A stretch of DNA of 64,000 nucleotides from positions 1-64,000 of the forward strand of contig NZ_LDJG01000003.1 in the NCBI RefSeq assembly GCF_001431425.1. The letters run 5' to 3'. Both the position numbers and the translations under genes were made by a program. The notes under the pieces were generated by a model. That model was given only the letters and a program-made list of their open reading frames with translations, had not been told where the DNA came from and did no database searches. The DNA comes from Stenotrophomonas nitritireducens. Its GTDB lineage: Bacteria > Pseudomonadota > Gammaproteobacteria > Xanthomonadales > Xanthomonadaceae. Below, one piece after another: positions 32,590 to 59,688 of this stretch (its first letter is position 1; every line of letters begins with the position of its first letter).

Positions 32590-33693
32590 CTACAGCCAGG
32601 CGAGTGCCGATTCAGCCAGTTCGCGCTCCTCATCGATCGCGACGTTCCATATGCTCGGCCCGCCCCCGCGGTCGATCCGCGTGGCTCCAGCATCGTTGAC
32701 GTCAGGTGCCAGCGCCAGGCCGAGCCAGGCCAGTCGCGCGACGATGCGAGCCCGCAAAACCGGCGCGCGATGGCCGATGCCGCCGGAAAAGACGACATGG
32801 TCGAGACCGCCAATTGCCGTGGCCATGGCCGCGATGGACTGCGCAATCCGGACTGCAAAGAGCTCCACGGCAAGCTGGGCCTGCGGGCCGGGATCCGTCA
32901 GCAACACGCGCATGTCGCCATGGCCGGCGATTCCGGCAAGGCCTGCACTGCGGTACAGGCCGTTTTCAAGCGCCTGCGCATCCAGGCGTTCATGCCTCAG
33001 CAGATACAGCAACGCGCCGGGATCGAGATCTCCGGAGCGGGTAGGGCTCGGGATTCCACCCAGCGGAGTGAGCGCCATGGTGGTGTCGCGGCTGCGGCCG
33101 CCCTCGACGGCGCAGACGCTGCAGCCACCCCCCAGATGCGCGAAGACAGCGCGGCCCTTCAGGATTCCAGCGTCGTGGCTGGCCACTATGCGGAGCGCGG
33201 AGGCAAAGGCGAGTCCATGGAAACCGTAGCGGCGGATGCCCAGCGCATCCCATGCTTCAGGGACAGGCAAGCGCCGGCTCCAGGGCGCGAGCGACGCGTG
33301 GAAGTCGGTGTCGAAGGCCACGCCTTGGCGCGCGTGCGGCCAACGCATGCGCGCGGCACGCGCGAAAGCGAGGGCTACCGGCTGGTGCAAGGGTGCGAAC
33401 GGCACCAATGCATCCAGTTTCGCGAGCACGGTTTCGTCGAGCTCGCGGGCGTCGTGAAGGTCACCGCCATGTACGATTCGGTGCACCACCACGTCGGGGC
33501 TGGGCCACGGCTCCGACAATGCCTCGAGCAGGGTGGCAAGGCGCTCCTGCGCATCCACGCCGACTGGAATTTCGGCCCGGGAGCGCTCGAGCAGACGAGA
33601 CTGCGCGCCGTGTCCCTCAGTGTTGAACAGATAGGACGCGCCCTTGAGGGTGGACGAGCCAACGTTGAGTGCAAGAAGCCGGCGCGTGGTCAC
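32590..33693 (-). CDS. ackA: Acetate kinase
   Basis: 367 residues, a little short for the family (about 400). It converts acetyl phosphate and ADP to acetate and ATP. Motifs: LALNVGSSTLKGASYLF (usually GSSSxK), VVVHRIVHGGD, FDTDFHASL, RRYGFHGLAF, FAHLGGGCSVCAV and FSGGIGHRAP. GTG start 19 bases after the P-type ATPase stop. It is the last gene of the 12-gene block and uses the acetyl phosphate made by the phosphoketolase four genes upstream. Confidence 0.9.
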   Translation of the reverse strand: MTTRRLLALNVGSSTLKGASYLFNTEGHGAQSRLLERSRAEIPVGVDAQERLATLLEALSEPWPSPDVVVHRIVHGGDLHDARELDETVLAKLDALVPFAPLHQPVALAFARAARMRWPHARQGVAFDTDFHASLAPWSRRLPVPEAWDALGIRRYGFHGLAFASALRIVASHDAGILKGRAVFAHLGGGCSVCAVEGGRSRDTTMALTPLGGIPSPTRSGDLDPGALLYLLRHERLDAQALENGLYRSAGLAGIAGHGDMRVLLTDPGPQAQLAVELFAVRIAQSIAAMATAIGGLDHVVFSGGIGHRAPVLRARIVARLAWLGLALAPDVNDAGATRIDRGGGPSIWNVAIDEERELAESALAWL

Positions 33694-33712
33694 AGGTGTC
33701 CCCGAATCATGT

Positions 33713-35788
33713 TCATGGGGACCGCACCGCCCGGCGCAACAACTGCGCATTGATTGCCACAACGACGGTGCTCAGCGACATGAGCACTGCCCCAAGCGCA
33801 GGTTGCAGCAGGATCCCCCATGCGGCGAGAACGCCAGCGGCGAGAGGGATGGCGACGATGTTGTAGCCGGCGGCCCACCACAGGTTCTGGATCATCTTGC
33901 GATAGGTGGCCTTGCTCAATTCGATGATCGCTGGCACGTCGCGCGGGTCGCTGCGCACGAGTACGACGTCGCCGGCCTCGACCGCGACGTCCGTCCCTGT
34001 GCCGATGGCGATGCCGACGTCGGACGTGAGCAGCGCCGGAGCGTCATTGACACCGTCACCCACCATCGCGACGCGCTTGCCCTGGGCCTGCAGCTCCTCG
34101 ATCTTTGCCACCTTGTCCTCGGGCAATACCTCGGCGAAGACGGTGTCGATGTTGAGTTCCTTCGCGACCGCGTTTGCGACCGCCGTGGAATCACCCGTCA
34201 GCAGGACAACCTCCAGTCCTTCGTCGTGCAGCCGCTTGACCGCGTCGAACGATTCGGGACGGATGGCATCCGCGATCGCAAATACGGCGAGCACCCGGTC
34301 GCCTTCCACCAGGTAGGTTGCAGATTGACCATCGGCTGCCGCTGATTCGGCAGCCCGCCGAAGCGTCTCCGGCGGTTCGACCGCGAGCATTCTCAACAGA
34401 CCCGGCCCGCCAACGTGAAGCGAGCGCTCCTCGACGACTGCGCGCACGCCGCGTCCCGGCATGGACTCGAAGTCCTGCGACATCGGAACGTCGATGCCAT
34501 GTTCCTTGGCGCTGGTCATCAGCGCCTGCGCGATCGGATGTTCAGCGTCGCGCTGGACCGACGCGGCCACGCGAAGCACCTCGTCGTCGGTGAGTCCATC
34601 GGCGGCAGTGGTCTTCACGACGCGGTGCGAACCGAGCGTGAGCGTGCCTGTCTTGTCGAACACGACCGTGTTCAGCAAACGGGCCTCTTCCAGGCCGCGT
34701 CGATCGCGCACGAGCAGGCCGTTCCGTGCGCCAATCGTGGTCGAGATGGCGGTCACCAGCGGGATGGCCAAACCCAGCGCATGGGGACAGGCGATCACGA
34801 GCACGGTCACTACGCGCTCGATCGTGAAGCTCCACGGTCGACCGAGGAGTGGCCAGACAATGGCGGTAACCGCGGCGGAGACGATGGCGATGATCGTGAG
34901 GTAGAACGCCGCCCGGTCCGCCAGGGCCTGGGCGCGCGAGCGCGACGTCTGGGCCTGCTCGACGAGCCGCATGATACCCGCGAGCGCGGTCTCGTCGCCG
35001 GTTCCCGTCACCTCGACACGCAACGAGCCCTGTCCGTTGACGGTGCCGGCGATCACCCGGTCGCCCGTCGACTTGTCCATCGGCTTGGACTCGCCGGTGA
35101 TCATCGCTTCGTTGACGGCGCTGGTCCCTTCCTTCACGACGCCGTCGGCGGGAATGCTCGCGCCGGGCCTGATGAGCAGCAGGTCGCCGCGCTTCAGTTC
35201 CGCGACAGGGACTTCCTTCGCGGTACCGGCCTCATCCAACCGCACCGCCATATCAGGCAGCAGCTTCGCGAGTTCCTTGAGAGCGCCCTGTGCCTGGTTG
35301 ATCGAACGCATCTCGATCCAGTGGCCGAGCAACATGATCGCCACCAGCGTCGCCAGCTCCCACCACAGGTCCAAGCCCTCGACAACGCCGAGCGTGACCA
35401 ACGCGCTGTAAAGGAAGGCGACGGTGATCGCAAGCGAGATCAGCGTCATCATGCCCGGCAGGCGATTTCTCAGCTCGTGGTATCCGCCGCGGAGGAACGG
35501 CGAGCCGCCGTAGAAGTACACGATCGTGCCGAACACCGCCGGGATGTACGCCGACCCCGGGAACTGTGGTGCGGTGTAGTCGAACCAATGCTGGATCATC
35601 CCGCTCCAGATCAGAGTGGGGATGGTCAGCAGCAGCGTGAGCCAGAACTTGTCGCGGAAGCTCGCCACGCTGTGGCCGGCATGCTTGTCGTGCCCGGCAT
35701 GGACGTCACCTTCAGCACCCGTGCGGGGATGCGGCGGTTGCTCGCCGTGCGCCTGATGATCTTGATGATGATGATTGTGTTGCGTCAT
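33713..35788 (-). CDS. CopB-type (P1B-3) copper-translocating P-type ATPase
   Basis: 691 residues. A His-rich cytoplasmic tail (MTQHNHHHQDHQAHG and further HAGH) replaces an HMA domain. Actuator loop TGES at 231-234, transmembrane metal motif CPH at 334-336, phosphorylated D377 in DKTGTLTLG, and a GDGVNDAP hinge. CPH ATPases are Cu(II)/Cu(I)/Ag exporters. It lies 63 bases after the UbiB-like gene in the 12-gene block and just before acetate kinase. Confidence 0.93.
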   Translation of the reverse strand: MTQHNHHHQDHQAHGEQPPHPRTGAEGDVHAGHDKHAGHSVASFRDKFWLTLLLTIPTLIWSGMIQHWFDYTAPQFPGSAYIPAVFGTIVYFYGGSPFLRGGYHELRNRLPGMMTLISLAITVAFLYSALVTLGVVEGLDLWWELATLVAIMLLGHWIEMRSINQAQGALKELAKLLPDMAVRLDEAGTAKEVPVAELKRGDLLLIRPGASIPADGVVKEGTSAVNEAMITGESKPMDKSTGDRVIAGTVNGQGSLRVEVTGTGDETALAGIMRLVEQAQTSRSRAQALADRAAFYLTIIAIVSAAVTAIVWPLLGRPWSFTIERVVTVLVIACPHALGLAIPLVTAISTTIGARNGLLVRDRRGLEEARLLNTVVFDKTGTLTLGSHRVVKTTAADGLTDDEVLRVAASVQRDAEHPIAQALMTSAKEHGIDVPMSQDFESMPGRGVRAVVEERSLHVGGPGLLRMLAVEPPETLRRAAESAAADGQSATYLVEGDRVLAVFAIADAIRPESFDAVKRLHDEGLEVVLLTGDSTAVANAVAKELNIDTVFAEVLPEDKVAKIEELQAQGKRVAMVGDGVNDAPALLTSDVGIAIGTGTDVAVEAGDVVLVRSDPRDVPAIIELSKATYRKMIQNLWWAAGYNIVAIPLAAGVLAAWGILLQPALGAVLMSLSTVVVAINAQLLRRAVRSP

Positions 35789-35851: not shown

Positions 35852-37444
35852 TTACAAGTGTCCCGATCTGGCGATGGCCATCACCAGCCGCAGTGAGAGC
35901 AATCCCGCAGCAGCGAAAGCCACCATAGCCAGGAAAGGCATGTGACCGAACACTTGCGGGCCGTCGGAATGCAGGCTCAACAGCGCACCGCTTACGTACA
36001 GGCCCAAGGTGACCAGGGCCAACGCCAGCCGGTTGCCCGTGCGCGCGATTGCCTCCTGCGTGGAACTCAGGCCATGGTGGTGTACGGAGAAGGCGGGTCG
36101 TCCGTCGCTCAGTTGCGCCTGCCGCAACAGGTCGGTGGCGATCTGTGGCAGTTGGCGCGCAGTGCGGGCCAGCCGCATGGCAAGCGGCCTGTTGCCGCTG
36201 GGGCGGCTGGCTTCGGCAATGTCGGCGATCGCGGCCGCCTGCGCGGACAGCGTCCCCAGCAGGTCCAGATTCGGATCCAGCGCCCGCAGCGTGTTCTCGA
36301 CCAGGAACAGCGTCCGGATCAGGGACAGCAGGTGGGCCGGAAGCCGGAAGCCAGCGCCCTGCCCAATGCGTGCCACGCGCCAGATTGCCTCGGCAATGGA
36401 CCACTGCGCCAGCGGACGGCTGGCCATCTCGGCCAGGATCAGGTGGATCTCGCGCACATGCGAGCGGCGGTCGACCTGCGACGGGAAGAAGCCCATGGCG
36501 ATCGCTGCATCCAGCACGCCCTCGGCGTCGTCGGCCGCAATGGCCTCGACCATGCCGCCGAGCGCGAGCCGGGATGCAGGGTCGAGCACGCCGATCGATC
36601 CAAAGTCATGCAGGCACAGGCGACCGTCGTCAAAGAAGAACAGATTCCCCGGGTGCGGGTCGGCATGGAAGACGCCGGCGCCGAAGAGCTGATGCACGTA
36701 GGCACCGAGCAGCGCCCTTGCCAGTGCGGGAGCGGCCGCTGTGCCGTACGCGGCCTCCAGACGGGTCCCGTGGCTTCGATCCTGCACAAGCACGTTGCGG
36801 GTGGCATACGGCTCGACGACGTGCGGCTGGGTGATGCCGGGCAGGGCATCCAGCACCTTGGCCATGCGCCGCATGTTCTGCGCCTCGTGACGCATGTCGA
36901 TCTCGTCACGCAGGAATGCGCCTAGTTCGTCCACCAGTTCGAGCGGCCGGTGGCGTTTCAGTGGCGGCCAGATCCACTGGGCGACGCGCATCGTGCGCCG
37001 CAGGAGCAGCAGATCCGCCTGCACCTGGGCATGGATCCCGGGGCGGGTGATCTTGACGACCACATCGCGACCATCATGCATGCGCGCTGGATGGATCTGG
37101 GCCACTGAAGCCGCGGCCAGGGGCTTGTCATCGAAGCTGGCGAAAAGTTCGCCGACCGGCGCGCCAAACGCCTGTTCGACGATACGCATGGCCTCCTCCG
37201 CCGGGAAGGGGGGCACATCGCTGTGCAATCGCGACAGCGCCTCGCGATAGGGCGCCGGCAGCAGGTCCCAGCGCAGGCTCAAGCCCTGGCCCAGCTTGAC
37301 GAAGGTGGTGCCCAACCCCACCAGTGTGGTGCTGACGTATGCCGGAAGCAGGTCGGGTGCACGTCGGCGCAGGCGCAGCACGGCGACGCCGAGCTTGAGT
37401 CCCGCCCAGGCAATCTGGCCTCCGCGCCGCACCGTGCCCGCCAT
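35852..37444 (-). CDS. ABC1/UbiB family atypical kinase
   Basis: 530 residues. Kinase-like fold with KxGQ motif (FVKLGQGLSLR), the ASVAQIH loop, VVVKI lysine, EIDMRHEAQNM, catalytic HADPHPGN and metal-binding LHDFGSIG, then two C-terminal membrane helices. UbiB proteins support ubiquinone synthesis, probably by moving lipids with ATP. This is an accessory copy, so its lipid may differ. ATG 37,444 has GGGAG 10 bases upstream; it begins 25 bases after the phosphoketolase stop. Confidence 0.85.
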   Translation of the reverse strand: MAGTVRRGGQIAWAGLKLGVAVLRLRRRAPDLLPAYVSTTLVGLGTTFVKLGQGLSLRWDLLPAPYREALSRLHSDVPPFPAEEAMRIVEQAFGAPVGELFASFDDKPLAAASVAQIHPARMHDGRDVVVKITRPGIHAQVQADLLLLRRTMRVAQWIWPPLKRHRPLELVDELGAFLRDEIDMRHEAQNMRRMAKVLDALPGITQPHVVEPYATRNVLVQDRSHGTRLEAAYGTAAAPALARALLGAYVHQLFGAGVFHADPHPGNLFFFDDGRLCLHDFGSIGVLDPASRLALGGMVEAIAADDAEGVLDAAIAMGFFPSQVDRRSHVREIHLILAEMASRPLAQWSIAEAIWRVARIGQGAGFRLPAHLLSLIRTLFLVENTLRALDPNLDLLGTLSAQAAAIADIAEASRPSGNRPLAMRLARTARQLPQIATDLLRQAQLSDGRPAFSVHHHGLSSTQEAIARTGNRLALALVTLGLYVSGALLSLHSDGPQVFGHMPFLAMVAFAAAGLLSLRLVMAIARSGHL

Positions 37445-37469: not shown

Positions 37470-39935
37470 TCATGGCGTCGACCCACTTGCAGGACGCAGG
37501 ATCGTGGCCGGATCGCCCCGACCATCCACTGCCGCCAGCTCCGCTTCCGACAACAGGCCGCCCCGGGACTGGCCGAGGACGCCCGCGGCCGCATCGACCA
37601 CGTGCGCCCAGGTGCTGCGGTTGGCGAACAGCAGTCCCGGCACGTCCAGCGTGCCGCCGCGGTTGACGAAGCCGAGCGCCGCGGTCGTGGCCGGGCCAGT
37701 GTCGAGCCGGCGCAGCGCGCCCAGGAAGGGCTCGGGCCGCGTATGCGTGACGAATATGCGCGGCCGTTCCGCCGGGAACAGTGCATGGACCTCGCTGTCG
37801 GAGTGCACGTACCGCGCCTCGTCCGGATCGCGCGGCGTGCGGAACCGGCCGGGCTCGCCGAGATAGACGATCGCGGCCGACACGCCACGTTCAACGAGGC
37901 GCACCTGCGCGTGGCGCACTTCCTGCAATTGGTAAGCACCGGTGGCGACCAGCAGGATCGCCGCTGTCGCCGGGTTGCCGGCCAGGCACAGCGCACCTTG
38001 GGTGGCCAGCGCCTGCGCCTGCGTCGGTGTCAGCTCGTGCGGCACCGGTCGCTTGGGGACGACCAGGGTGGTGACCGTGCCGCGTTGCGCGTAGGCGTGG
38101 GCGAGGGCCGCGGCGGCGCCGTTGGCGTCCGGGGGAAACACCACGCGCGATATGTCGGCCATTTCGCCCAGGAGCGCCTCGGCCATGGTCGGATCCTGAT
38201 GGGACTGCTCGTTCTTCGCGTTCTCCCACGTGTGCGAGGTCAGCACGAGAGGCACGCCCAGCCAGCCGGGCGGTCGCCCCGCCTGTGCCTGGTGACGCGC
38301 GAAGATCAATTCCTGGCGCACGGCGCCAAGCATCTTCGGTGCGAACGCCTCGTAGGTGACCACCAGGTTCAGCCCGCCCTTGTTGCCGAGCGCGGCGCAT
38401 ACCACGGCTTCCTCATTAAGCGCGGTGATGACCGCGCCAGTGGTCGATTCCGCGACACCGGGCTCGGGCTCGTGCACCCGGTGCTTCATTGCGTCCAGGG
38501 TGCGATCGAGCTTGTTGCTGCGCAGCTCGTCAGGATTGCCCACGCGCACGCGCAGCCCCGGGTTCGCTTCGGCGATGGCGACGAACTGCTCGTCGAGCGC
38601 GGTCATCGGCGAGCTCTCGCCGCCGGCGCCGCGGTCGGCGATCGCCGGGACGCGGGGCGGTTCCACCTGGCGATCGGCCAGCGCATGGTCGCGCTCGCGC
38701 ACGCGCTGCTGGAGGTCGTGGCTGTTGAGTGCGGCAACAGCCTCCTCGAGCTCGGACGCGGCCACGAACAGCGCCGCGGCGCCTTGATTGAAGAGCGCGC
38801 GTGCCTCGGCCTCCTTCGACGGATTCCCGGGCAGGGGCAGGTTGTGCGAGGCGTTGGTCCCGGCGCCGGGGAATCCGAAGCCCTTCACGGTTTCGGCAAT
38901 GCCATAGGGCAGCCGCACGTCGGCATCGGGAACGGCGGCGCCCGCTTGCAGGCGCGACTCCATCACATGGATACCCCACGCGATGCTGGCCGGATCGCGC
39001 CCGTCCAGCGCGATCGGATCAAAGCCGTTCAATCGCAGGTGCCGGTCCAGCCACCGCTCGCCGCCCTGCTGGGCGATCTGGCTGCGCTGTTCGATGCGCC
39101 GCCCGTTGAGGATGATGATCGGGCTGACCAGCCCGCTGTCCTCGGCACGCCACCAGCGCGGCGCCCAGTCGCTGCCGCGCTGTTCCTCGAACGCACCGTC
39201 GCTGAGGAACGCCACCAGGCGTTCGTCCTTGAGCGGTGCATGCACGTACTGCAGTTCGGCAAAGCCGAGATAGCCGCCTTCCATCACGCCCCCGGCGGTG
39301 TGCGCATTGACGTGGGAGCCCAGGGGCGACGCCGGTGTTCCGTCCGGATTGAGGGTGTAGGCATAGAAGTCGCCGACGAACCGGCTCAGCCCCGCGTCGG
39401 AGCGGTCGTAACGTTCGGCGTGCCGGGCGGTCATGTTGCCAACCAGCACGTTCAGCGCGTCGATGGCGGCCACGCAGTGCCCCTGGCCCATCATCCATGC
39501 GCGGGTGACGCCATCCAGGGCGTCCATCAGCAGGTAGCCGGCGTAGGCCGGCACCATGTTGAGGGACCCGCCAGTGTGGCCTTCGGGCGTGGCCTTGAAG
39601 TCATCGGCCTCGAGGGCCGCGCCGTCGGTGCGGACCCGCTGGCTGTAGGTCATGTGGGCCACCAGCCACATGCCGGCGCTGGTGACGCGATCGGCCGCGG
39701 CGAGCCGCTGCCAGGCGGTGCCGGCATCGGGCGTGCGGCCCAGGGCCACCAGCTCGTGCACCATCTGGCGGACCCGGAGCTGGGTGAGCGGGTCATGTCG
39801 GATCACGCCGTAGCCGGCCGCCCAATGGTCAAACGCGGGATCGGCCCGCCGGTGGGCGTCGGCGAGTTCAAGGGTCCGCTGGCGCTCGGCGGCCGACAGC
39901 TGGTCGGCGGTGCAGCAGTTGAGATGCAGGTTCAT
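37470..39935 (-). CDS. xfp: Xylulose-5-P/fructose-6-P phosphoketolase
   Basis: An 821-residue thiamine-pyrophosphate enzyme that splits xylulose 5-phosphate (or fructose 6-phosphate) with phosphate into acetyl phosphate and an aldose phosphate. Motifs: PEGHTGGSLNMVPAYAGYL, GQGHCVAAIDALN, FLSDGAFEEQRGSDW, ASHNLPLPG, TYEAFAPKMLGAVRQEL and SHTWENAKNEQSHQDP. Full length. It starts within the stop of the PRPP-synthetase-like gene (ATGA overlap) and its product acetyl phosphate suits the acetate kinase at the end of the same block. Confidence 0.95.
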   Translation of the reverse strand: MNLHLNCCTADQLSAAERQRTLELADAHRRADPAFDHWAAGYGVIRHDPLTQLRVRQMVHELVALGRTPDAGTAWQRLAAADRVTSAGMWLVAHMTYSQRVRTDGAALEADDFKATPEGHTGGSLNMVPAYAGYLLMDALDGVTRAWMMGQGHCVAAIDALNVLVGNMTARHAERYDRSDAGLSRFVGDFYAYTLNPDGTPASPLGSHVNAHTAGGVMEGGYLGFAELQYVHAPLKDERLVAFLSDGAFEEQRGSDWAPRWWRAEDSGLVSPIIILNGRRIEQRSQIAQQGGERWLDRHLRLNGFDPIALDGRDPASIAWGIHVMESRLQAGAAVPDADVRLPYGIAETVKGFGFPGAGTNASHNLPLPGNPSKEAEARALFNQGAAALFVAASELEEAVAALNSHDLQQRVRERDHALADRQVEPPRVPAIADRGAGGESSPMTALDEQFVAIAEANPGLRVRVGNPDELRSNKLDRTLDAMKHRVHEPEPGVAESTTGAVITALNEEAVVCAALGNKGGLNLVVTYEAFAPKMLGAVRQELIFARHQAQAGRPPGWLGVPLVLTSHTWENAKNEQSHQDPTMAEALLGEMADISRVVFPPDANGAAAALAHAYAQRGTVTTLVVPKRPVPHELTPTQAQALATQGALCLAGNPATAAILLVATGAYQLQEVRHAQVRLVERGVSAAIVYLGEPGRFRTPRDPDEARYVHSDSEVHALFPAERPRIFVTHTRPEPFLGALRRLDTGPATTAALGFVNRGGTLDVPGLLFANRSTWAHVVDAAAGVLGQSRGGLLSEAELAAVDGRGDPATILRPASGSTP

Positions 39936-40846
39936 GGGTCCTCCGGGGAGTCGGCCGAAGCGGACATCAGGGTCGATGCCGCGTCAGCGAGGTCCGCGCC
40001 GAGCGCGATCGCGTTCGACGGGTGGGCAATGGTGTCGGTACTGACGATGCGGGCCAGACCTGCTTCCTGCAGGCGGGCATAGGCATCGCCGGCGAACACC
40101 GGATGGATGGCGACCAGCAGTGGCGGCGGCAACGACAACCGGCGCAGGTGTGCGAGGGTCTCCAGGATGGTGTGGCCGGACGACACGATGTCGTCGATCA
40201 GGACCGGGGTCCGGCCCGCCACGGCCTGCGGGTCGGGCAGGCTGACGCGCACGTCGTAGTCGCCGTGCCGCTCCTTGGCCAGCACCTGGTAGGGCATGCC
40301 GGACAGGGCGGCGATGTCCGCTACCCACTGCTCGCTCTCGCTGTCAGGGCCGATCAGCACAGCGTCGGGGACGGTCTCAGCGATCCAGCGGGCCACGGCC
40401 GGCGTCGCCGATACGTGGACCGTCGGAATGCGGTAGAGCGACTGCAGGCGCTCGACGCGGTGCAGGTGCGGGTCCACGGTCACCAGCCAGTCGAAAGCCT
40501 CTTCGAGGAATTGCGCAAACAGCGGTGTACTGACCGCCTCGCCGCGATGGAAGCGGGTGTCCTGGCGCATATACCCCAGGTAGGGTGCGATGAGGCCGAC
40601 CGAACGAGCCCCGAACTCGCGCGCGGTCCGGGCGGCGAAGCGCAGCGGGAGGGCCAGGGCATCGGCGTTGCGCAGGCTGGCCAGGATCGCCACATCGGCG
40701 CCGTCCAGTGCGTCGTCCAGGGTGACCAGCGACTCGCCATCGGGGAAGTGCCGCCAGGCCACGGGTGCAATGCGCGCCTGCAGGGGCTGGTTGATGGTGC
40801 CGGCCAACACTGCATCGGCCGGGAAGGGCATCAGCACACGGGTCAT
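39932..40846 (-). CDS. Ribose-phosphate pyrophosphokinase-like protein
   Basis: 304 residues of the PRPP synthetase family. Present: HFPDGESLV, the flexible-loop motif YMRQDTRFHRGEAVS, VDPHLHR, and the PRPP-binding loop VLIDDIVSSGHTI. It differs from housekeeping Prs and belongs to the group found next to AMP/thymidine phosphorylases, where it may work between ribose 1,5-bisphosphate, ribose 5-phosphate and PRPP. It overlaps both neighbours by four bases. Confidence 0.82.
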   Translation of the reverse strand: MTRVLMPFPADAVLAGTINQPLQARIAPVAWRHFPDGESLVTLDDALDGADVAILASLRNADALALPLRFAARTAREFGARSVGLIAPYLGYMRQDTRFHRGEAVSTPLFAQFLEEAFDWLVTVDPHLHRVERLQSLYRIPTVHVSATPAVARWIAETVPDAVLIGPDSESEQWVADIAALSGMPYQVLAKERHGDYDVRVSLPDPQAVAGRTPVLIDDIVSSGHTILETLAHLRRLSLPPPLLVAIHPVFAGDAYARLQEAGLARIVSTDTIAHPSNAIALGADLADAASTLMSASADSPEDP

Positions 40847-42360
40847 GGAACCTCTCCAAGCACAAAGGGTTGCAGCGTCGCGGCGTGCTCTAGGGCGTAG
40901 GCCAGTTCTCCCGGCGACTCCGCATGCAGGGTCATCATGGGCTGTCCGCGCTCGACCGTATCGCCGATCCGCAGACCGGTTTCGAGGCCGGCGGTGGGGG
41001 ATGTCGGGGCGCCGGCCAGCTTGGCCAGTTTGGCCAGCCTGCGGTTGTCGATCGCCGCGATGCGGCCCGATGCAGGCGCCGGGACGTCGGCGGTGAACGC
41101 CGCCCGTGGCGGTTCGCGGAAGCCTCCCTGGGCCTCGCAGATCGCCAGGAACTTGGCCAGCGCCGCCCCGGAATCCAGCACGCCGCGCGCGCGCTCCAGT
41201 CCGGTGCCGGCGTTGCTGCCCGCTGCCATGTCCAGCAGCGCCGCGGACAGCGCAAGTGCGCGTTCGCGAAGGTCGGCGGGTGCATCGGCCGCGTTGCGCA
41301 GCACCTTGAGCACGTCGTGCGCCTCGAGCGCCGGGCCGATTCCCCGACCCACCGGCTGGGTGCCGTCGGAGCGATGGATGCCCAACTGCAATCCCAGCGC
41401 GCCCGCGGTGTGGGCAAGCCGCGTGCCGAGGCTGTGGGCCGCGGCCTCACCTCGCACCTTGGCCGTCGGACCCACCGGCATGTCGATCAGGACGTGGGTG
41501 GAGCCCGCGGCTATCTTCTTCGACAGCACGCTGGCGACCAGTTGGCCGTCGCTGTCGAAATCCAGCGGGCGCTGGACCCGGATCAGGATGTCGTCGGCCG
41601 GGCTCAGGCGCACGTTGCCACCCCACACGATGCAGCCGCCCTCGCGCTCCACCACCCGGCGCATCGCCGCCAGGTCGAGCGCCACCGGCGCCATCACTTC
41701 CATGGTGTCGGCGGTGCCCGCGGGCGACGTGATCGCGCGCGACGAGGTCTTCGGGATGCGGTAGCCCAGCGCAGCCACGATGGCCACCACGATCGGGGTG
41801 GTGCGATTGCCCGGCAGGCCACCTACGCAGTGTTTGTCCAGCACCGGCCCTTCGCCCCAGTCCAGGCGCTGGCCCACGGAGATCATGGCTCGCGTCAGCG
41901 CGGTCGTCTCCGCATGGTCCAGGCGGTCACCCGCGCTGGCAGTGACGAAAGCTGCAAGCTCCAGGTCCGACAACCTGCTTTCCATCACGTCCTGCACCAG
42001 GGCGAAGTACTGCGCGTCGTCCAACCGGGCGCCGAACACCTTGGCACGGAGCGCGCCCGCCGACGCCGCGGGTTCCGCGTGCCTGACGCCGGCGAGGGCG
42101 TCGGGCGCGGGATCGAGGAGCGTCCACGCGGCCTCCGACAACGCCACCTCGTCCAGGCCGAGCCGATCGTCGATGACCACGTTCAGCGTCGCCACCAGCG
42201 TGCGGGCGTCCACGTCCAGCCTGACGCGCGTCATCGCGGCAAAGCCTTCCGAGCGACAGACCTCGCAGTCGCGGTGCATATAGACCACCGGCTGCTGGTA
42301 GGTGTCGATGCCGGCACGGGTGACGCGCAGGCGGGTGTGGCCCGGGGCCTGCGTGGTCAT
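40843..42360 (-). CDS. AMP/thymidine phosphorylase, type 2 subfamily
   Basis: 505 residues, the length of the archaeal AMP phosphorylase (DeoA) rather than bacterial thymidine phosphorylase (about 440). Motifs: DKHCVGGLPGNRTTPIVV (phosphate/nucleoside site), SSRAITSPAGTADTME, GGNVRLSPADDILI and a C-terminal barrel-sandwich domain (APASGRIAAIDNR). In archaea it releases the base from AMP to give ribose 1,5-bisphosphate. In bacteria the group is called putative thymidine phosphorylase. Substrate here is inferred. ATGA overlaps at both ends. Confidence 0.85.
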   Translation of the reverse strand: MTTQAPGHTRLRVTRAGIDTYQQPVVYMHRDCEVCRSEGFAAMTRVRLDVDARTLVATLNVVIDDRLGLDEVALSEAAWTLLDPAPDALAGVRHAEPAASAGALRAKVFGARLDDAQYFALVQDVMESRLSDLELAAFVTASAGDRLDHAETTALTRAMISVGQRLDWGEGPVLDKHCVGGLPGNRTTPIVVAIVAALGYRIPKTSSRAITSPAGTADTMEVMAPVALDLAAMRRVVEREGGCIVWGGNVRLSPADDILIRVQRPLDFDSDGQLVASVLSKKIAAGSTHVLIDMPVGPTAKVRGEAAAHSLGTRLAHTAGALGLQLGIHRSDGTQPVGRGIGPALEAHDVLKVLRNAADAPADLRERALALSAALLDMAAGSNAGTGLERARGVLDSGAALAKFLAICEAQGGFREPPRAAFTADVPAPASGRIAAIDNRRLAKLAKLAGAPTSPTAGLETGLRIGDTVERGQPMMTLHAESPGELAYALEHAATLQPFVLGEVP

Positions 42361-43742
42361 CTCGCATCCTCCAATCCGACTTGCTCCAGGTGCCCCGGCA
42401 CGCGCGCACGCCAGCCCAGTTCACGCTGCACGCGCCCGCGCAGCGTGTCTGCAGCGTCGGGCTCGCCGTGGGTGAGGTAGACCATGCGCGGCGCGGACGG
42501 CGCGGTGCGCATCCAGTCCAGCAGCTCCCCGGCGTCGGCGTGGCCGGAGAAGCCCTCCAGCTGCACCACCTCGGCGCGGATGGGGACCTCGCGGCCGAAC
42601 ATGCGCAACGTGCGCTTGCCTGCCGCCAGCGCGGCACCGCGTGTTCCTCCGGCCTGGTAGCCCGCGAGCAGGATCGCGTTGCGGTCATCGGGGCCGAACG
42701 CCTCGATGTGGTGCAGCACGCGCCCGCCGGTGATCATGCCGCTGGCCGAGATGATGATCATCGGCCCGCGCTGGCGGTTGAGTGCCTTCGACTCTTCTAC
42801 AGTGTTGACGAAGGTGGCCACGTCGAACATCCGCTGGCAGTCCTCGTCGGACACGTGGTGCTCGGAGTGGTGGTCGTGGTAGTGCCGGGTCGCGTTGATC
42901 GCCATCGGGCTGTTGAGGTAGACCGGCACGCGAGGGATGTCCTTGCGCTCACGCAGCCGGGCGATATGCAGCATGAGCGCCTGGGCGCGGCCGATGGCAA
43001 AGGCGGGAATGACGATCACGCCCCCGCGGGCGGCAACGCGGCGGATGATCGGTGCCAGCTCGGCTTCTTGGTCGATCGGAATGTGTTCCCGATTGCCATA
43101 TGTGGATTCGCAGACCAGGACGTCACAGGCGGGCAGGGGCGTCGGCGGATTCATCAGCGACTCCTGCTGCCGTCCCAGGTCGCCACTGAAGTGCAGGCGC
43201 TGGCCCTGGACGTCAAGGCTGACATGGGCAGCGCCCAGGATGTGGCCGGCAGGATGGAAGCGGATCGTGACGCCTGATGCGACCTCGATGTCGCGACCAT
43301 AGTCATGCCCCTTGAGCTGCTTCAGGCTGCGGCGGGCGTCATCCTCGGTATAAAGCGGCCGTGGTTCCTTGTGCTTGGAGTACCCCTTGCGGGCCGCGTA
43401 CTTGGCCTCCTCTTCGAGCAGGTGTCCGCTGTCGGGAAGCAGCAGGCCGCACAGGGCCACGCTGCCATGGGTGCAGTGGATCCGGCCGCGGAACCCTTGT
43501 TTGACCAGTGCGGGCAAGTAGCCCGAATGGTCCAGGTGGGCGTGGGTCAGGACCACCGCGTCGATTGATGACGCCTCGACGGGAAACGGAGCCCAGTTGC
43601 GCTCGCGCAATTGCTTGTAGCCCTGGAACAGGCCGCAGTCCACGAGCACGCGCTGACCGTTGGCCTCGACCAGGTAGCGCGAGCCGGTCACGGTGCCCGC
43701 GGCACCGAGGAATTGCAGGGTGGGGTTGGAAGACGCTGTCAT
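42357..43742 (-). CDS. Beta-CASP metallo-beta-lactamase nuclease
   Basis: 461 residues. Metallo-beta-lactamase core with LTHAHLDHSGY, and later HPAGHILGAAH and SGDLGR. The beta-CASP part has FAIGRAQ, SASGMITGGR and a final histidine in GFSGHADAGEL. These features match the CPSF73-like RNA exonuclease/endonuclease family, which is often linked to phosphorylases that recycle nucleotides. AGGAG ribosome site. It is 82 bases after the small periplasmic gene. Confidence 0.88.
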   Translation of the reverse strand: MTASSNPTLQFLGAAGTVTGSRYLVEANGQRVLVDCGLFQGYKQLRERNWAPFPVEASSIDAVVLTHAHLDHSGYLPALVKQGFRGRIHCTHGSVALCGLLLPDSGHLLEEEAKYAARKGYSKHKEPRPLYTEDDARRSLKQLKGHDYGRDIEVASGVTIRFHPAGHILGAAHVSLDVQGQRLHFSGDLGRQQESLMNPPTPLPACDVLVCESTYGNREHIPIDQEAELAPIIRRVAARGGVIVIPAFAIGRAQALMLHIARLRERKDIPRVPVYLNSPMAINATRHYHDHHSEHHVSDEDCQRMFDVATFVNTVEESKALNRQRGPMIIISASGMITGGRVLHHIEAFGPDDRNAILLAGYQAGGTRGAALAAGKRTLRMFGREVPIRAEVVQLEGFSGHADAGELLDWMRTAPSAPRMVYLTHGEPDAADTLRGRVQRELGWRARVPGHLEQVGLEDAR

Positions 43743-43824: not shown

Positions 43825-44232
43825 TCAGGGGCGGATCAGCTCCACTGTGTCGTTGACCTTGGGGCTCCCGGAGATCACTTCAGCCTCCGCGTAGTGGCTG
43901 TCGAACAGTTCGACGATGCGCACTTGGCCAACGTTCTCGCGGCGGTAGCGTGGACCGCCGGCCCGCGAATGCCGGATACGGCGCTTGTGCCGGATCACGT
44001 CCAGCACCTGCCCGACCTGGGCACCGTCGGCCTGCCCGACACAGACCACAAGCGTTCCGTCCTGCTTTTCCAGCACCTGGCCGCGCATCAACACGTTGTG
44101 GCGGAACCCACCCTCGTTCGCGGAGACGACCCCCGGCAATGCGAACGCGAGCGCGAGGGCCAGTGCGGCGACCCAATGGCTGCGATTGGTACCTCGGGGT
44201 CTGGAATGGGCGACGTGTGTGACCGTATTCAT
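43825..44232 (-). CDS. Small exported protein of unknown function
   Basis: 135 residues with a signal peptide ending near LPGVVSA. The mature part is strand-rich with small basic runs ([43 protein letters not shown]) and may be an OB- or SH3-like barrel. I do not recognise the family. Its ATG overlaps the stop of the CPD-type ATPase gene, so it is probably made with it and may be a periplasmic helper. Confidence 0.6.
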
Positions 44233-46616
44233 GGTGTGGACTCCTTAGATGGGCTGCGAGGGGTGGCGGCATCCGCCAGTGGAAGGCGTTTGAGCAGCAA
44301 CGCGTTGAGGGCGACGATCACCGAACTGCCCGACATCGACAGCGCGGCGATTTCTGGCGACAGCACGAACGGATAGAGCACACCGGCCGCCAGCGGAAAG
44401 GCCAGCACGTTGTAGCCCACGGCCCAGCCCAGATTCTGATGCATCTTGCGCAGAGTGGCGTGGGCGATGGTGGTCGCGCGAACGACGTCATAAGGGTCGC
44501 TGTGCATGAGCACGATGTCGGCACTCTCGATGGCGACGTCGGTGCCGGCGCCGATCGCGAACCCAACGTCGGCTTGGGTGAGCGCCGGTGCGTCGTTGAT
44601 GCCGTCGCCCACCATGCCGACCTTGAGGCCCTGCGACTGCAGCTTGATGACCTCATCGGCCTTGCCGCCCGGCAGCACGTCGGCCAGCACGATGTCGATT
44701 CCCAGGTCCTGTGCCACGCGCTCGGCCGTGGGGCGGTTGTCGCCGGTGATCATCGCCACCTTGATGTTGCGCCGGTGCAATTCGTCGATGGCCGCGCGCG
44801 AGGTCTCCCGGATCGCGTCGGCAATCGCGAAGAAGCCTGCGAGCCGGTCACCCACCCCGGCATAGATCACCGTGCGACCGGCACCGGTGAGGCGCGCAGC
44901 CTCCGCTTCCAATACCGAGAGGTCGATGCCGTGCTCGACCATCAGGATCCGGTTGCCCAGCACCACCTGCACCCCGTCAACCACGCCGGTAGCGCCCTGG
45001 CCATCGATGTTGGTGAACGCGGTAGCGCGCTCGGCTACCGGACCGGCACGCTTCAGGATGGCCTGCGCCAGCGGGTGCTCGGAGTGCGCCTCGACCGCGG
45101 CGGCCGCGGCCAGCAACCGCTCCTGCGTCCAGCCCGGCGCGACCGCCATGTCGACCACCTCGGGGGCGCCGACCGTCAGGGTGCCGGTCTTGTCGAAGAT
45201 CACCACGTCCAGGCGTGCGCTCTTCTCAATCGATTCGGCATGCTTGAAGAGGATGCCGTGTCGTGCCCCCAGGCCAGTGCCGATCATGATCGCCATCGGC
45301 GTGGCCAAACCGAGTGCATCGGGGCAGGCGATGACGAAGACGGTGATCGTCAGCGTGAGCGCGAACAGCAGCGGCTGTCCCAGCCACCAGAACCAGACCG
45401 CGAAGGTCAGCAGCCCGATCACGATCGCAGCCAGCACCAGCCATTGCGAGGCGCGGTCGGCGAGCAGCTGCGCGGGCGCCTTGGAGTTCTGCGCGGTCTG
45501 GACCAGCTTGATGATCTGCGCCAGTGCCGTGTCGCTGCCGATCTTGGTGGCGGTGTAGGCGAATGCGCCGCTCTTGTTGATCGATCCGCCGACGACGGAC
45601 TCTCCGGGATCCTTGCGCACCGGCATCGACTCGCCGGTCAGCATGGATTCGTCGACCTGAGAGCTGCCTTCCGTCACGATGCCATCGACCGGGATCTTCG
45701 CCCCGGGCCGCACGATCACGGTCTCGCCGACCAGCACTTCAGCGGTGGGAATGTCGAGCTCCTGCCCCTCGCGCCGGACGACCGCGCGGGGTGGGGACAG
45801 CTTCAGCAGCGCTTTCATGGCGTCCGAGGCGCCGGCGCGAGCCCGCATCTCGAGCCAGTGGCCAAGCAGGACGAAGGTCAGCAGGACGGCCGAGGCCTCG
45901 TAGAAGTTCGGCCCGTCGAAGAAGAACGTCGACGCGATGCTGAAACCGTAACCTGTGCCCACGCTCAGGAGCACCAGGACCGCCATGTCCAGCACACCCC
46001 GTCGCAGGGACCGGATCGCGGCGCTGAAGAATGGCCAGCCCGGATACAGCACGGCGCCGGTCGCCAGCAGGAACAACCAGACGTTCTCGCGCAGTCCGAA
46101 CGGCACCGGCGGCGGCTCTATCAGCCCGCCCATGGGCGACCACACGAATACCGGGATCGCGAAGGCGAGGGCGACCAGGAAGCGGCGGCCCATGTCGCGC
46201 GCCGCGGCGTGCAGATCGCTGCCGTGGTTCATGCCCGCATGGGCGTCGTGGCCCCCGGCATCCGTGGCGTCATCGCCGTGGCCGGCGTGGGCGTCAGCGG
46301 GGCGCTCTGCGGCCAATTCCTGTCCGTGCCCGGCATGCGCAGCATGGGCGTGCGCGCCTGCGGCGGGGTCGGCATCGGGCATCGGCGCGTTGCATTGGAA
46401 GCCGCAGTCGCGGATCGCGGTGGCGACCGCGCCCGCCGACAGGCGGGCCGGGTCGTAGGACACCTGCAGGGTCGCGGTAGCGAAATTCGCGCTGGTGGCG
46501 TTGACTCCAGGCAGCGCGGCCACGGCCTTCTCCAGCGTGCGCGCGCAGCCGGCACTCACCATGTCGCCGATGGGCCAGGTGCGCGTGCGCACAGTGGGTT
46601 TGTGGACGTGCGTCAT
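44229..46616 (-). CDS. Metal P-type ATPase with unusual CPD motif
   Basis: 795 residues. N-terminal HMA-like domain without a CxxC (DMVSAGC with C24; C71 and C75 later), followed by a His-rich linker ([27 protein letters not shown]). Actuator TGES, transmembrane metal motif C431-P432-D433 ([13 protein letters not shown]) instead of CPC or CPH, D475 in DKTGTLTVG, and GDGINDAP. All catalytic parts are intact, so it should be active; the metal specificity cannot be read from the motif. Overlaps both neighbours by four bases. Confidence 0.9.
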
Positions 46617-47278
46617 CGGGTTTCTCCTTGGGATGGAGCGGGGCCGCGCCGGCGTCGCGGGATGAAGGCCGGCACTTCCTGCATGTAGCGGACGTAGTCG
46701 TCGCCGAAGCGGCTCAAGCAGTCTTTTTCCTCACGACGCGCCAGGCGGGCATAGGCCCACACGAGCACTGGATAGCTGGCGAGCGTGAGCAGCGTGGGCC
46801 ACTGCAGCAGGAAACCGGTCAGCACGAGCAGGAAGGCGACGTACTGCGGGTGACGCATGCGCGCATACACGCCCTCGCGGGCGAGCCGGCCTTCACGCTG
46901 TGCCCGATACAGCACCGGCCAGGCGGCCGACAGCAGCCAGAAGCCGCCGCCGATCAGGACGAAGCTTGCGATGTGGAATGGGCCGAAATGCGGGTTGGCG
47001 CGCCAGCCGAACCACATCTCGAGCAGATGGCCCGCGTCATGGCTCAGCCAGTCCACCTGCGGATAGTTGGCGCTGAGCCAGCCGCCCAGGACGTACAGCG
47101 TCAGCGGGAAGCCATACATTTCCGCGAACAGGGCCACGACGAAGGCGGAGAACATACCGAACCCACGCCAGTCCCAACGGGTCAGCGGTTTGTAGAAGCT
47201 CCAGGCGAAGAAGATGAAGAACGCGGCGTTGATGGCGGCGAGGAGCCAAAGACCGTAGCCGGAGTCGGGTGCCTGCAT
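46613..47278 (-). CDS. Isoprenylcysteine carboxyl methyltransferase-family membrane protein
   Basis: 221 residues with about five or six membrane helices. The C-terminal half has the ICMT/PEMT signature [19 protein letters not shown] and [19 protein letters not shown], which bind S-adenosylmethionine in this family. Bacterial members near copper genes are common, but their substrate is unknown. It overlaps the CPD ATPase and follows the DUF2933 gene with a one-base gap. Confidence 0.82.
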
Positions 47279-47279
47279 G

Positions 47280-47594
47280 TCAGTGCCCTCCGTTCGAGGT
47301 GTCGGACGTTTCGTCGTTCAGTGCCCGCTTGCTACGGCTCTCATGCTGGCCATGGGGTGTGTCGTCGGCATTGCCGTCGCGCCCATGACTTCCGGAACCT
47401 CCATGACCGCCATGCCCCTTGTGCATGAACACATGCATCAAGGGACATAGCAGCAGGATGGCCAGGGGCAACCAGCGAAGCGTCCCCCCAAGGTGGGCGC
47501 GGTGCTCGACGGCGAGATAGAACACGGCCAGCGCCAGGAAGATCCAGAAGACCCAGCGTCGGGAGCCTGAGGGGGCAGGACTGGAGGCTGTCAT
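47280..47594 (-). CDS. DUF2933-family small membrane protein
   Basis: 104 residues. A helix (WVFWIFLALAVFYLAVEH), a second helix (LPLAILLLCPLMHVFMH) and a His/Gly-rich tail (HKGHGGHGGSGSHG...). The arrangement matches DUF2933 proteins that accompany copper and heavy-metal ATPases. The His-rich tail is a likely metal site. It overlaps the MerR-family gene by four bases. Confidence 0.8.
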   Translation of the reverse strand: MTASSPAPSGSRRWVFWIFLALAVFYLAVEHRAHLGGTLRWLPLAILLLCPLMHVFMHKGHGGHGGSGSHGRDGNADDTPHGQHESRSKRALNDETSDTSNGGH

Positions 47595-48103
47595 GGCAAA
47601 TTCTCCTCTGTGGGGCGGCGTCCAAGAAGTCGCCGGGGGGTGGACTTGACGAACCCGCCGCCTTCAGCAGCGGCAACAGATTCGATCAATGCGCAGACGT
47701 CATCGCCAGTCGGAATGGAGTCCGGAAGCTCCGCCCAGGCGTGGATGGCACGCTCCATTCGTCCGTGCATGGCGAGCAGCCTGTCCAGTTGTTGGCGGGT
47801 GTCGTCGAGCCTGCGCCGAATGATGTCCCGCACAAGCGGACAGGGACTATGTCGCAGCAGGCTGTGGTGGATGATTTCCTCGATTTCCCCCAGCGTGAAG
47901 CCAAGGTGTTGCGCCGTGCGAATGAAGTGCAGGCGAAGGAGCTCCGAGGTGGAGAACAACTGGTAGCCGCCCTCGGTATGCGTGGCCGCTTGCAACAGAC
48001 CGCGCCGCAGGTAGTTGCGCACCACATGCACCGTGACATCGCCCTGCCGTGCCAGCTGGCGGACCGTCATCAGCGGCAGCGTCACTTCTTCCTTGGTCGT
48101 CAT
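47591..48103 (-). CDS. MerR-family metal-responsive regulator
   Basis: 170 residues. N-terminal winged HTH (MTVRQLARQGDVTVHVVRNYLRRGLL, similar in places to MerD/MerR), a long dimer helix, and a C-terminal tail with cysteines in SPCPLVRD and DDVCALIES that could bind metal. It is the first gene of the 12-gene block and has a GGGAG ribosome site. A MerR-type promoter sits 28-58 bases upstream and would therefore be autoregulated. Ligand unknown; a soft metal is likely. ATG 48,070 is an alternative start. Confidence 0.87.
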   Translation of the reverse strand: MTTKEEVTLPLMTVRQLARQGDVTVHVVRNYLRRGLLQAATHTEGGYQLFSTSELLRLHFIRTAQHLGFTLGEIEEIIHHSLLRHSPCPLVRDIIRRRLDDTRQQLDRLLAMHGRMERAIHAWAELPDSIPTGDDVCALIESVAAAEGGGFVKSTPRRLLGRRPTEENLP

Positions 48104-51200: not shown

Positions 51201-51425
51201 CGCGAGCAGGGCGCTGGTCAGCGGATAGGTGACCTGGTCCTCGACCACCTGGGGCGCCTGCCCCGGGTACTCCGTGAACACGATCACCTGCACGTCCGAC
51301 AGATCCGGTTGTGCGTCCAGCGGCGTGTTCATCAGTGCGTAGATGCCACCGGCGACAATCGCCAGCGCCATCAGCAGCACCAGGAAGACGTTGCGCACCG
51401 ACCATTCAACGAGACGGCCAAGCAT
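48276..51425 (-). CDS. cusA: CusA-type heavy-metal RND efflux pump
   Basis: 1,049 residues, the usual HME-RND length. It starts MLGRLVEWSVRNVFLV; NTPLDAQPDLSDVQVIV and GVMVDAAIVMIENAHKH (charged residue in TM4 for proton relay) are signatures. Twelve membrane helices and two large periplasmic loops. It exports Cu(I)/Ag(I) from the periplasm through CusB and CusC. It begins one base after the cusB stop. Close to silver/copper pumps; other metals cannot be excluded. Confidence 0.95.
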   Translation of the reverse strand: MLGRLVEWSVRNVFLVLLMALAIVAGGIYALMNTPLDAQPDLSDVQVIVFTEYPGQAPQVVEDQVTYPLTSALLATPKSKDVRGFSFFGASFIYVIFEEGTDLYWARSRVLENLNVASKNLPAGVAPALGPDASGVGWVYQYVLQSDRHSLDELRAMQDWYLRYQLTTAPGVAEVASVGGFVRQYSITVDPVRLREFDIPISRVSEVIAESNRDVGGRVIEMAETEYMVRGRGYLRGIEDIESLVLRAEGGAPVLIGDVARVELVPDERRGIVDLDGEGDVVGGIVIARFGENALAVIGGVKDKIAQLASGLPEGVSVQAVYDRSDLIVRAIKTLRTTLLEESLIVALVCLVFLFHARSALVAIVMLPVGVLIAVIAMRMLGMNSNIMSLGGIAISIGVMVDAAIVMIENAHKHIERSDGSRSRTQLIIDACREVGPALFFSLMIITVSFLPVFALEAQEGRLFKPLAFTKTFAMAGGALLSITLVPVLMLLFVRGKIVPEHKNPVNRFLVAAYRPVINVVLRHRMATIMFALAALFASLWPASRLGSEFMPTLNEGTLLYMPASLPGMSVTKASELLQQQDRIIKGFPEVESVFGKAGRALTATDPAPLEMFETVINLKPEDEWRDGMTTDKLIAEMDAALKFPGVANSWTMPIKARTDMLATGIRTPVGIKLFGTDLEQLDALATEIEAVVREVPGTTSAFAERLTGAYYLDITPDLGSLAQYGVTLGEVQNVVAAALGGEIVTTILQGRERFSAIVRYPRELRDDPHRIGSQVLVPVPGGAQVPLGELARIEVRKGAPSIRTENAMLAAYIYVDTRESDLGRYVKAAQEAVTEQVQFPPGYYVTWSGQYEYMQRAAEKMRVVVPVTLALIFLLLYLNFRRVTESLIVMLSVPFALVGGIWLMWMLDYNTSVAVIVGFIALAGVAAETGVVMLIYLDHALEARAAQRQAEGRALDSRDLREAIIEGAVDRVRPKMMTVVAIMAGLLPIMWSSGTGSEVMRRIAAPMVGGMVSSTILTLVVIPALYSLIKQRQLARKPHPSSALPKEK

Positions 51426-51426
51426 G

Positions 51427-54158: not shown

Positions 54159-54287
54159 ATCAGTGTCCTTGGGCCGACGCGACGCAGGTCGCTCGGACGA
54201 GGGCAGGAACACATGCCGTGACGCAGCCACGGCGCGAACGCACAGGACTGCGCCGCACAGACGTGCGGAGCAGTCAGCGTCCAGGCA

Positions 54288-54710: not shown

Positions 54711-54716
54711 GACTTG

Positions 54717-54754
54717 AGCTTACCACTTACCCGGTCCGAAGCAACTGATCCAGA

Positions 54755-54758
<4 letters not shown>
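54717..54758 (-). promoter_or_regulatory. Predicted FNR/ANR-type class II promoter
   Basis: On the minus strand TTGATCTGGATCAG (54,758-54,745) matches the FNR consensus TTGATnnnnATCAA in nine of ten defined bases. A -10 TAAGCT (54,722-54,717) follows and the ATG is six bases further (54,710). If transcription starts at that ATG, the box is centred at exactly -41.5, the textbook FNR activation position. The box overlaps the last codons of the upstream ATPase gene. Confidence 0.65.
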
Positions 54759-57181
<2,423 letters not shown>

Positions 57182-57242
57182 GCCGATGCTCGCTTTAGTG
57201 GGGATGGACTGCCAAGGCAGTGTGCCATTGCGGGTTACACAG

Positions 57243-58172: not shown

Positions 58173-58182
58173 TCGCGACTCC

Positions 58183-58566: not shown

Positions 58567-58693
58567 AGGGATAAATCCTCATTGCGAATGTGATGCAAAG
58601 CCCCGTTCGGCGCCGTGCTGTGTTGGATCCGACAAGCGTTAGGTGTCGGGCTGTCACCGAAACCACGGTTGGTCGGCTTTTGATATTTGAGAT

Positions 58694-58722: not shown

Positions 58723-58728
58723 GACGCG

Positions 58729-59674: not shown

Positions 59675-59688
59675 TTCTGGTTCTCCGC

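Follow-up and report, generated by a model that had tools for sequence, protein, structure and literature searches.

In the archaeal pentose bisphosphate pathway, or nucleoside monophosphate (NMP) shunt, of Thermococcus kodakarensis, the NMP phosphorylase TK0352 works with ribose 1,5-bisphosphate (R15P) isomerase and a form III RuBisCO. R15P is also handled by PhnN, the ribose 1,5-bisphosphate kinase of phosphonate metabolism, which forms phosphoribosyl pyrophosphate (PRPP); and pairs of phosphoketolase and acetate kinase, as in the bifid shunt or the rhizobial bll2518-bll2517, yield acetate and ATP by way of acetyl phosphate. A haloarchaeal, non-carboxylating pentose bisphosphate pathway leaves R15P without RuBisCO (PMC9700705), and a nucleotide-degrading route tied to RuBisCO has been described in bacteria of the candidate phyla radiation (PMC12628685). 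Here we describe a gene run in the first 64,000 nucleotides of contig NZ_LDJG01000003.1 of Stenotrophomonas nitritireducens (assembly GCF_001431425.1; this whole stretch is the window below), centered on a type-2 phosphorylase and a PRPP-synthetase-like protein. We read the operon as an energy-salvage module predicted to burn nucleotide ribose to acetate without RuBisCO, and give this reading about an even chance of being correct. The nearest relative of the predicted pathway is the archaeal NMP shunt (PMC9700705, PMC8376864, PMC12628685), and our searches of the open-licence literature turned up no paper that places this phosphorylase and this PRPP-synthetase-like protein in one pathway with a phosphoketolase.

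The genes lie on the minus strand and follow one another, in the order of transcription, as beta-CASP metallo-beta-lactamase nuclease (461 aa, 42357-43742), phosphorylase (505 aa, 40843-42360; families NF003338 and TIGR02645), PRPP-synthetase-like protein (304 aa, 39932-40846; NF005537), divergent phosphoketolase (821 aa, 37470-39935), a UbiB-family protein, a P-type ATPase, and a divergent acetate/propionate-family kinase (32590-33693, from a GTG start that we infer; the open frame reaches 33762). ATGA overlaps join the nuclease to the phosphorylase, the phosphorylase to the PRPP-synthetase-like gene, and the latter to the phosphoketolase, which bears out the translational coupling proposed in the first-pass annotation for the last three genes, whose reading frames are all present at the lengths given there; the kinase, on the same strand, had not been mentioned (open frame 32590-33762). 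The run shares with the archaeal shunt a homologous phosphorylase with an N-terminal domain and, as a predicted intermediate, R15P; it differs in being bacterial, in having no R15P isomerase above the cut-off and no RuBisCO in its own genome, and in its near-obligate PRPP-synthetase-like partner and predicted phosphoketolase/acetate kinase exit. The haloarchaeal pathway likewise exits from R15P without RuBisCO, but still uses R15P isomerase (PMC9700705).

In the proposed pathway, the beta-CASP enzyme would, judging by its family, cut RNA, and the phosphorylase would convert NMP and phosphate to free base and R15P. The PRPP-synthetase-like partner would then pass the phosphate at C1 of R15P on to AMP, leaving ribose 5-phosphate (R5P) and forming ADP; this is the least certain step, and would amount to the reverse of the PRPP-synthetase reaction, with one phosphate less. 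Housekeeping RpiA and Rpe would turn R5P into xylulose 5-phosphate, which phosphoketolase would split into acetyl phosphate and glyceraldehyde 3-phosphate, and acetate kinase would convert the acetyl phosphate to acetate, with formation of ATP.

The phosphorylase gene and the PRPP-synthetase-like gene are nearly always found together, far beyond chance. Among 274 genomes sampled from the window's class, phosphorylases above the cut-off occur at 62 places in 59 genomes, and 58 of these 62 places have a PRPP-synthetase-like gene next to them on the same strand; conversely, 58 of the 61 PRPP-synthetase-like places (counted from 212 bits upward, with 164 as the next lower score) adjoin a phosphorylase. 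Both genes are found in 55 genomes, the phosphorylase alone in four, and the PRPP-synthetase-like gene alone in two, so that the latter is present in 55 of the 59 phosphorylase genomes versus 2 of the 215 others (Fisher p = 2.5e-50, relatedness not corrected for). The pairing is also seen in a set of 80 related loci, the best 80 of 586 confirmed relatives, which leans toward close relatives (in six loci, L036-L041, identity to the window is 92-98%, and L063, L064, L066, L067, L069, and L070 share one island): 71 loci encode a PRPP-synthetase-like protein scoring at least 200 bits, and the other nine lack one, with short pieces present in two of these; a partner missing from a locus can reflect a contig end. 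The commonest spacing between the two genes is a 4-base overlap (44 cases).

We searched for the enzymes by which R15P leaves the archaeal shunt. RuBisCO large subunit (PF02788) has no match in the 3.98 Mb genome that holds the window, the only genome searched for RuBisCO, and R15P isomerase (TIGR00511) reaches only 198.6 bits there, against a cut-off of 314.1; the sole IF-2B-family match of that genome is MtnA, which fits it better than R15P isomerase. The absence of both enzymes reported at first pass extends to the whole genome, and we rejected an exit through R15P isomerase and RuBisCO for this organism. No R15P isomerase above the cut-off was found in any of the 274 class genomes, whereas 3 of 14 control genomes pass. 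R15P must therefore leave by another enzyme, and the candidate is the paired PRPP-synthetase-like protein.

This protein belongs to NF005537 (362 bits, cut-off 322), and its predicted model (pLDDT 95) adopts the fold of PRPP synthetase (3mbi, Z 32.8 over 285 residues). It resembles PrsA, the PRPP synthetase, in this fold and in keeping residues F34, D36, E38, R94, Q95, H127, D168, K191, R193, D218, and D219, which we take to be those that bind Mg, adenylate, or the transferred phosphate, or are catalytic, in PRPP synthetase. Unlike PrsA, it lacks the pyrophosphate loop PDxGG and reads GPDSES instead: positions 170-171 are ES, versus GG in 28 out of 28 other TIGR01251 synthetases covering the site, and position 174, three residues on, is tryptophan where the other synthetases have arginine; in addition, extra residues (LHR) follow DxH. 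The comparison comprised 30 sequences, of which one is a fragment that ends short of the site and one (L160) is itself linked to a phosphorylase and has E, S, and W at these positions. The motif GPDxESxQW is found in all 71 homologues of at least 200 bits from the related loci (QWV in 66, QWA in five), and in a set of 29 homologues E170 is kept in 29 and S171 in 28. In human PRPP synthetase the corresponding loop binds diphosphate, and since this loop has ES for GG we do not file the protein as a PRPP synthetase; an ordinary PRPP synthetase is encoded elsewhere in the same genome. The kept adenylate site and the altered diphosphate loop together favor the reaction R15P + AMP to R5P + ADP. The locus L160 adjoins a phosphorylase on contig C64 of genome G016 (97% complete), where this phosphorylase-linked type is the sole PRPP-synthetase match above the cut-off; either the assembly or the species itself may lack an ordinary PRPP synthetase.

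We tentatively propose, as a reading somewhat short of even chances, that the NF005537 proteins paired with the phosphorylase are R15P:AMP phosphotransferases that evolved from PRPP synthetase, with a loop glutamate replacing the terminal phosphate; they would offer R15P a third exit, to R5P with a gain of ADP, beside R15P isomerase and PhnN, and would mark an NMP shunt widespread in bacteria, which together with phosphoketolase and acetate kinase would ferment the ribose of nucleotides at low oxygen. If so, a RuBisCO-free form of the archaeal nucleotide-degrading route would exist in about one-fifth of the class genomes (59 of 274) and about one-tenth of a phylum-wide sample (43 of 398 genomes with a phosphorylase above the cut-off). 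Two widespread families, at present annotated as thymidine phosphorylase and as ribose-phosphate diphosphokinase, would gain a function, operons of the FixK2 low-oxygen response would be explained, and a new phosphotransfer reaction is predicted.

Gene fusions also connect the phosphorylase family with R15P. In the phylum sample 49 phosphorylase places were listed; eight with long frames were inspected (G473 and G610, with more than 600 aa, were left out), and four of the eight have a PhnN domain fused ahead of the phosphorylase: G567, G641, G509, and G651 (fusion loci L169:4159-6477, L170:4119-6275, L172:4149-6080, and L175:4331-6433). The PhnN part exceeds its curated cut-off of 156 bits in all four (164, 186, 169, and 181 bits, respectively); the phosphorylase part of the G509 fusion scores 410 bits, under the TIGR02645 cut-off of 434.6 but over that of NF003338. 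Because PhnN acts on R15P, its fusion to the phosphorylase makes it plausible that the phosphorylase family works with R15P in those proteins. PhnN is of another protein family than the PRPP-synthetase-like partner, which takes its place in the paired loci: no PRPP-synthetase-like match was found in the four fusion loci (10-11.5 kb), so the two look like alternative R15P-handling partners. No PhnN homologue was found in 88 neighborhood loci, and the window's own genome has a single match of 52.9 bits, under the cut-off. All four fusions stand beside a nadC-like gene, possibly as a separate module leading from R15P through PRPP to pyridine nucleotides.

The first-pass annotation had suggested that nucleotide ribose may be turned into acetyl phosphate by phosphoketolase. 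The phosphoketolase passes Pfam XFP (136.2 bits, cut-off 22) as well as XFP_N, and its alignment with 8io8 keeps the histidines and the SHQDP motif, which we presume to be phosphoketolase active-site residues. Phosphoketolase matches occur in 30 of the 80 related loci (26 score at least 400 bits, and 22 share the strand of the phosphorylase); acetate kinase occurs in 12 (nine on the same strand), ten of which also have a phosphoketolase match. For example, L068, L076, and L077 have the order phosphorylase, acetate kinase, phosphoketolase, and L168 has the order phosphoketolase, nuclease, phosphorylase, phosphate acetyltransferase, acetate kinase. In the 88 neighborhood loci, phosphotransacetylase was found in two and type II glyceraldehyde 3-phosphate dehydrogenase (GAPDH), which could take up glyceraldehyde 3-phosphate, in 12. 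At the level of genomes, XFP is present in 29 of the 59 phosphorylase genomes and 49 of the 215 others (p = 1.5e-4, relatedness not corrected for), and family matches to RpiA and Rpe are present in the window's own genome. The predicted exit resembles the bifid shunt and the rhizobial pair in passing from acetyl phosphate to acetate and ATP, but here it is tied to genes of nucleotide phosphorolysis and both enzymes are divergent.

Published expression data for genes of the same names, matched to those of the window by annotation rather than by sequence, point to a low-oxygen response. Table 2 of PMC9104804 lists genes with putative FixK2 boxes whose expression falls in C183D-fixK2 and fixK2-deleted strains of Bradyrhizobium diazoefficiens. 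In the fixK2 deletion, bll2517 and bll2518 (acetate/propionate kinase and phosphoketolase) fall 10-fold, bll3115 (metallo-beta-lactamase fold) 30.6-fold, and bll3117 (thymidine phosphorylase family) 6.6-fold; bll2518-bll2517 and bll3117-bll3116-bll3115 are predicted operons (PMC9104804). Oxygen at 0.5% raises both transcript and protein of bll2518, bll3115, bll3116 (ribose-phosphate pyrophosphokinase), and bll3117 (PMC6515984). In P. aeruginosa, PA3613 (phosphoketolase) and PA3614 (metallo-beta-lactamase) are marked as up at low oxygen and have no entry for Anr, and PA0836 (AckA) is also given as up (PMC8575079); a phosphoketolase is also predicted in the FixK regulon (PMC2908626).

The reading of the operon as a route from nucleotide ribose to acetate is coherent and draws support from gene linkage, fusions, residues, and regulons, every enzymatic step, that from R15P to R5P included, being a prediction. 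As the best-supported reading, the suggested passage of ribose to acetyl phosphate gains the acetate kinase in the run, the recurrence of phosphoketolase and acetate kinase in related loci, the nuclease and PhnN fusions, and the FixK2 dependence in Bradyrhizobium. A number of observations weigh against it. Both acetate-forming enzymes stay under the curated NCBIfam cut-offs, the phosphoketolase with at best 124 bits versus 777 and the kinase with 290 versus 486 (NF005462) and 212 versus 293 (TIGR00016). Four of the phosphoketolase matches in the related loci are weak (49-92 bits; L068, L090, L100, and L107), eight of the 30 are on the opposite strand, and no homologue of RpiA (ribose-5-phosphate isomerase) or Rpe (epimerase) was found in the 88 loci searched. 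With one mismatch allowed at most, the window has a single FNR/FixK-type site, at 54745, and no FNR-like box near the operon; a two-mismatch site (42895) lies inside the nuclease gene. In PMC6515984, bll2518 and bll3115-bll3117 carry no mark as FixK2 targets or for a rise in bacteroids. The phosphorylase itself scores 437.7 bits against the AMP phosphorylase equivalog TIGR03327 (AMP_phos), below the curated cut-off of 535, and the name AMP phosphorylase used at first pass is not supported as written. Finally, 50 of the 80 loci have no phosphoketolase match within the stretch covered and XFP is without a match in 30 of the 59 phosphorylase genomes, which implies that the phosphorylase and its partner also work without phosphoketolase; and PhnN, the alternative partner, forms PRPP rather than R5P and would fit a PRPP-forming role.

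The last two points bear directly on the main rival for the partner's reaction, R15P + ATP to PRPP + ADP in place of R15P + AMP to R5P + ADP. The pair would then recycle PRPP, the partner phosphorylating the R15P released from NMPs as PhnN does, so that ribose phosphate is rescued for nucleotide or NAD synthesis and the phosphoketolase is an unrelated neighbor. The retained synthetase fold and catalytic residues, the nadC-like gene beside each PhnN fusion, and the phosphorylase genomes without phosphoketolase are all in keeping with this scheme; we nevertheless consider it rather unlikely, because the diphosphate loop reads ES in all 71 homologues and GG in all 28 other synthetases that cover the site, genes for acetate kinase, phosphoketolase, and GAPDH are repeatedly found next to the pair, and both Bradyrhizobium operons depend on FixK2 in the table of PMC9104804.

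The substrate predicted for the phosphorylase in the route to acetate rests on several lines. By family the protein passes NF003338 (643.1 bits, cut-off 434) and TIGR02645 (552.6 bits, cut-off 434.6), annotated as putative thymidine phosphorylase, and it contains the motif KHCVGGLPGNRTT. Its best solved relative is the AMP phosphorylase of T. kodakarensis, at 308 bits, versus 79-122 bits for nucleoside phosphorylases. The predicted model (mean pLDDT 91.8) was compared with solved structures by re-alignment of those on Foldseek's list, which covers only the families listed there: AMP phosphorylase 4ga5 aligns over residues 9-502 (Z 46.4, 2.2 A, 488 residues), 4ga4 over residues 98-505 (Z 52.5, 407 residues), and human thymidine phosphorylase over 399 residues (Z 46.1). 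Of the 50 solved structures listed, 4ga5 is the only one whose alignment takes in the N-terminal domain, and the other rows begin at residue 96 or later; the model thus has over its full length the N-terminal domain and phosphorylase core of an AMP (NMP) phosphorylase. In an alignment of ten sequences, in which the labels of three TrpD and two DeoA sequences were confirmed, the loop PKTSSRAITSPAGTAD of the window phosphorylase is common to AMP phosphorylase with one change. It also resembles AKHGNRS[IV]SSxxGSAD of the three TrpD proteins, whose substrate is a 5-phosphoribosyl compound. At this site the two DeoA proteins read PMISGRGLGHTGGTxD, so that the stretch PKTSSRAITS is like AMP phosphorylase and TrpD and unlike DeoA (PMISGRGLGHTGG). 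We infer from these lines that the phosphorylase splits NMPs to base and R15P, and from the alignment that this loop probably contacts the substrate 5-phosphate.

The same data speak to a scheme of ordinary nucleoside catabolism, in which thymidine, uridine, or other nucleosides yield (deoxy)ribose 1-phosphate and the partner is a genuine PRPP synthetase supplying nucleotides. The family name and the nearness of the fold to human thymidine phosphorylase would agree with it, but the gap between the scores to AMP phosphorylase and to nucleoside phosphorylases, the N-terminal domain shared with the former, the loop, the PhnN fusions, and the separate ordinary PRPP synthetase in the same genome make it improbable.

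At the head of the predicted breakdown route, the nuclease passes the Pfam cut-offs for Beta-Casp (122.2 bits, cut-off 27.7), RMMBL (66.8 bits), and Lactamase_B, and its closest solved structure is the RNase TTHA0252 (2dkf, 278 bits). It is found by sequence comparison in 61 of the 80 related loci, and its junction with the phosphorylase is a 4-base overlap in 27 of the 80. In G065 nuclease and phosphorylase form one 954-aa protein (L127:2516-5380), with the PRPP-synthetase-like gene next, again at a 4-base overlap. This fusion and the acetate-forming neighbors point to breakdown and leave little likelihood for the reverse direction, base salvage, in which R5P + ADP would give R15P + AMP and the phosphorylase would join R15P to free bases, yielding NMPs, even if phosphorolysis is reversible in general and the same loop change would suit the reverse reaction. 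G065 also carries a second, unfused phosphorylase pair (L128). A further nuclease-phosphorylase fusion, suspected from a 1063-aa frame in L168, proved to be a spurious over-long frame, with two separate genes there. The best NCBIfam score of the window nuclease (42357-43742) is to the type VII CRISPR nuclease Cas14, at 355 bits, far below the cut-off of 800.

The metabolic genes sit within a copper-resistance gene run, since copper ATPases and a CusA-type efflux system flank the operon. Downstream of the phosphoketolase, also on the minus strand, are the ABC1/UbiB-family protein (35852-37444; Pfam ABC1, 200 bits; ATG start at 37444 inferred) and a copper/heavy-metal P-type ATPase (33713-35788; TIGR01525 and TIGR01511 above cut-off). 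Upstream of the nuclease and on the same strand lie a 135-aa protein (43825-44232) with no family match in Pfam or NCBIfam, a copper P-type ATPase (44229-46616; TIGR01511, 595 bits) whose gene overlaps that of the 135-aa protein by ATGA, and, at the head of the gene run (46613-48103), genes that Pfam assigns to an ICMT-family methyltransferase, a DUF2933 protein, and a MerR-type regulator (its MerR-type matches in NCBIfam are below cut-off). CusA-type efflux is also encoded upstream. It is very improbable that the metabolic genes are mere passengers of a mobile copper-resistance island with no joint pathway: P-type ATPases are found in 44 of the 80 related loci, some copies are on plasmids, and the four other genomes of the genus in the phylum sample have no phosphorylase match, but the pair recurs across the class sample, fusions occur, and the Bradyrhizobium counterparts depend on FixK2 (PMC9104804). 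No tRNA, as a possible island end, was found in the window. The region 48276-63945 looks like a copper-resistance region with CusA-type efflux, more efflux-like, P-ATPase-like, and multicopper-oxidase-like frames, all except CusA assigned by eye.

A DUF2933-ICMT operon stands in the same FixK2-dependent table (PMC9104804), and is the same-named counterpart in Bradyrhizobium of the DUF2933 and ICMT genes at 46613-47594 of the window; this is a hint of genes common to the copper run and the low-oxygen response. A second, similar cluster is present in the window's own genome, on contig C9 (L031:3088-17697), and comprises a P-ATPase, MFS, TPM, nuclease, phosphorylase, PRPP-synthetase-like protein, DUF6629, UbiB, and type II GAPDH; an Acidovorax plasmid (L033) carries a set closely similar to it.

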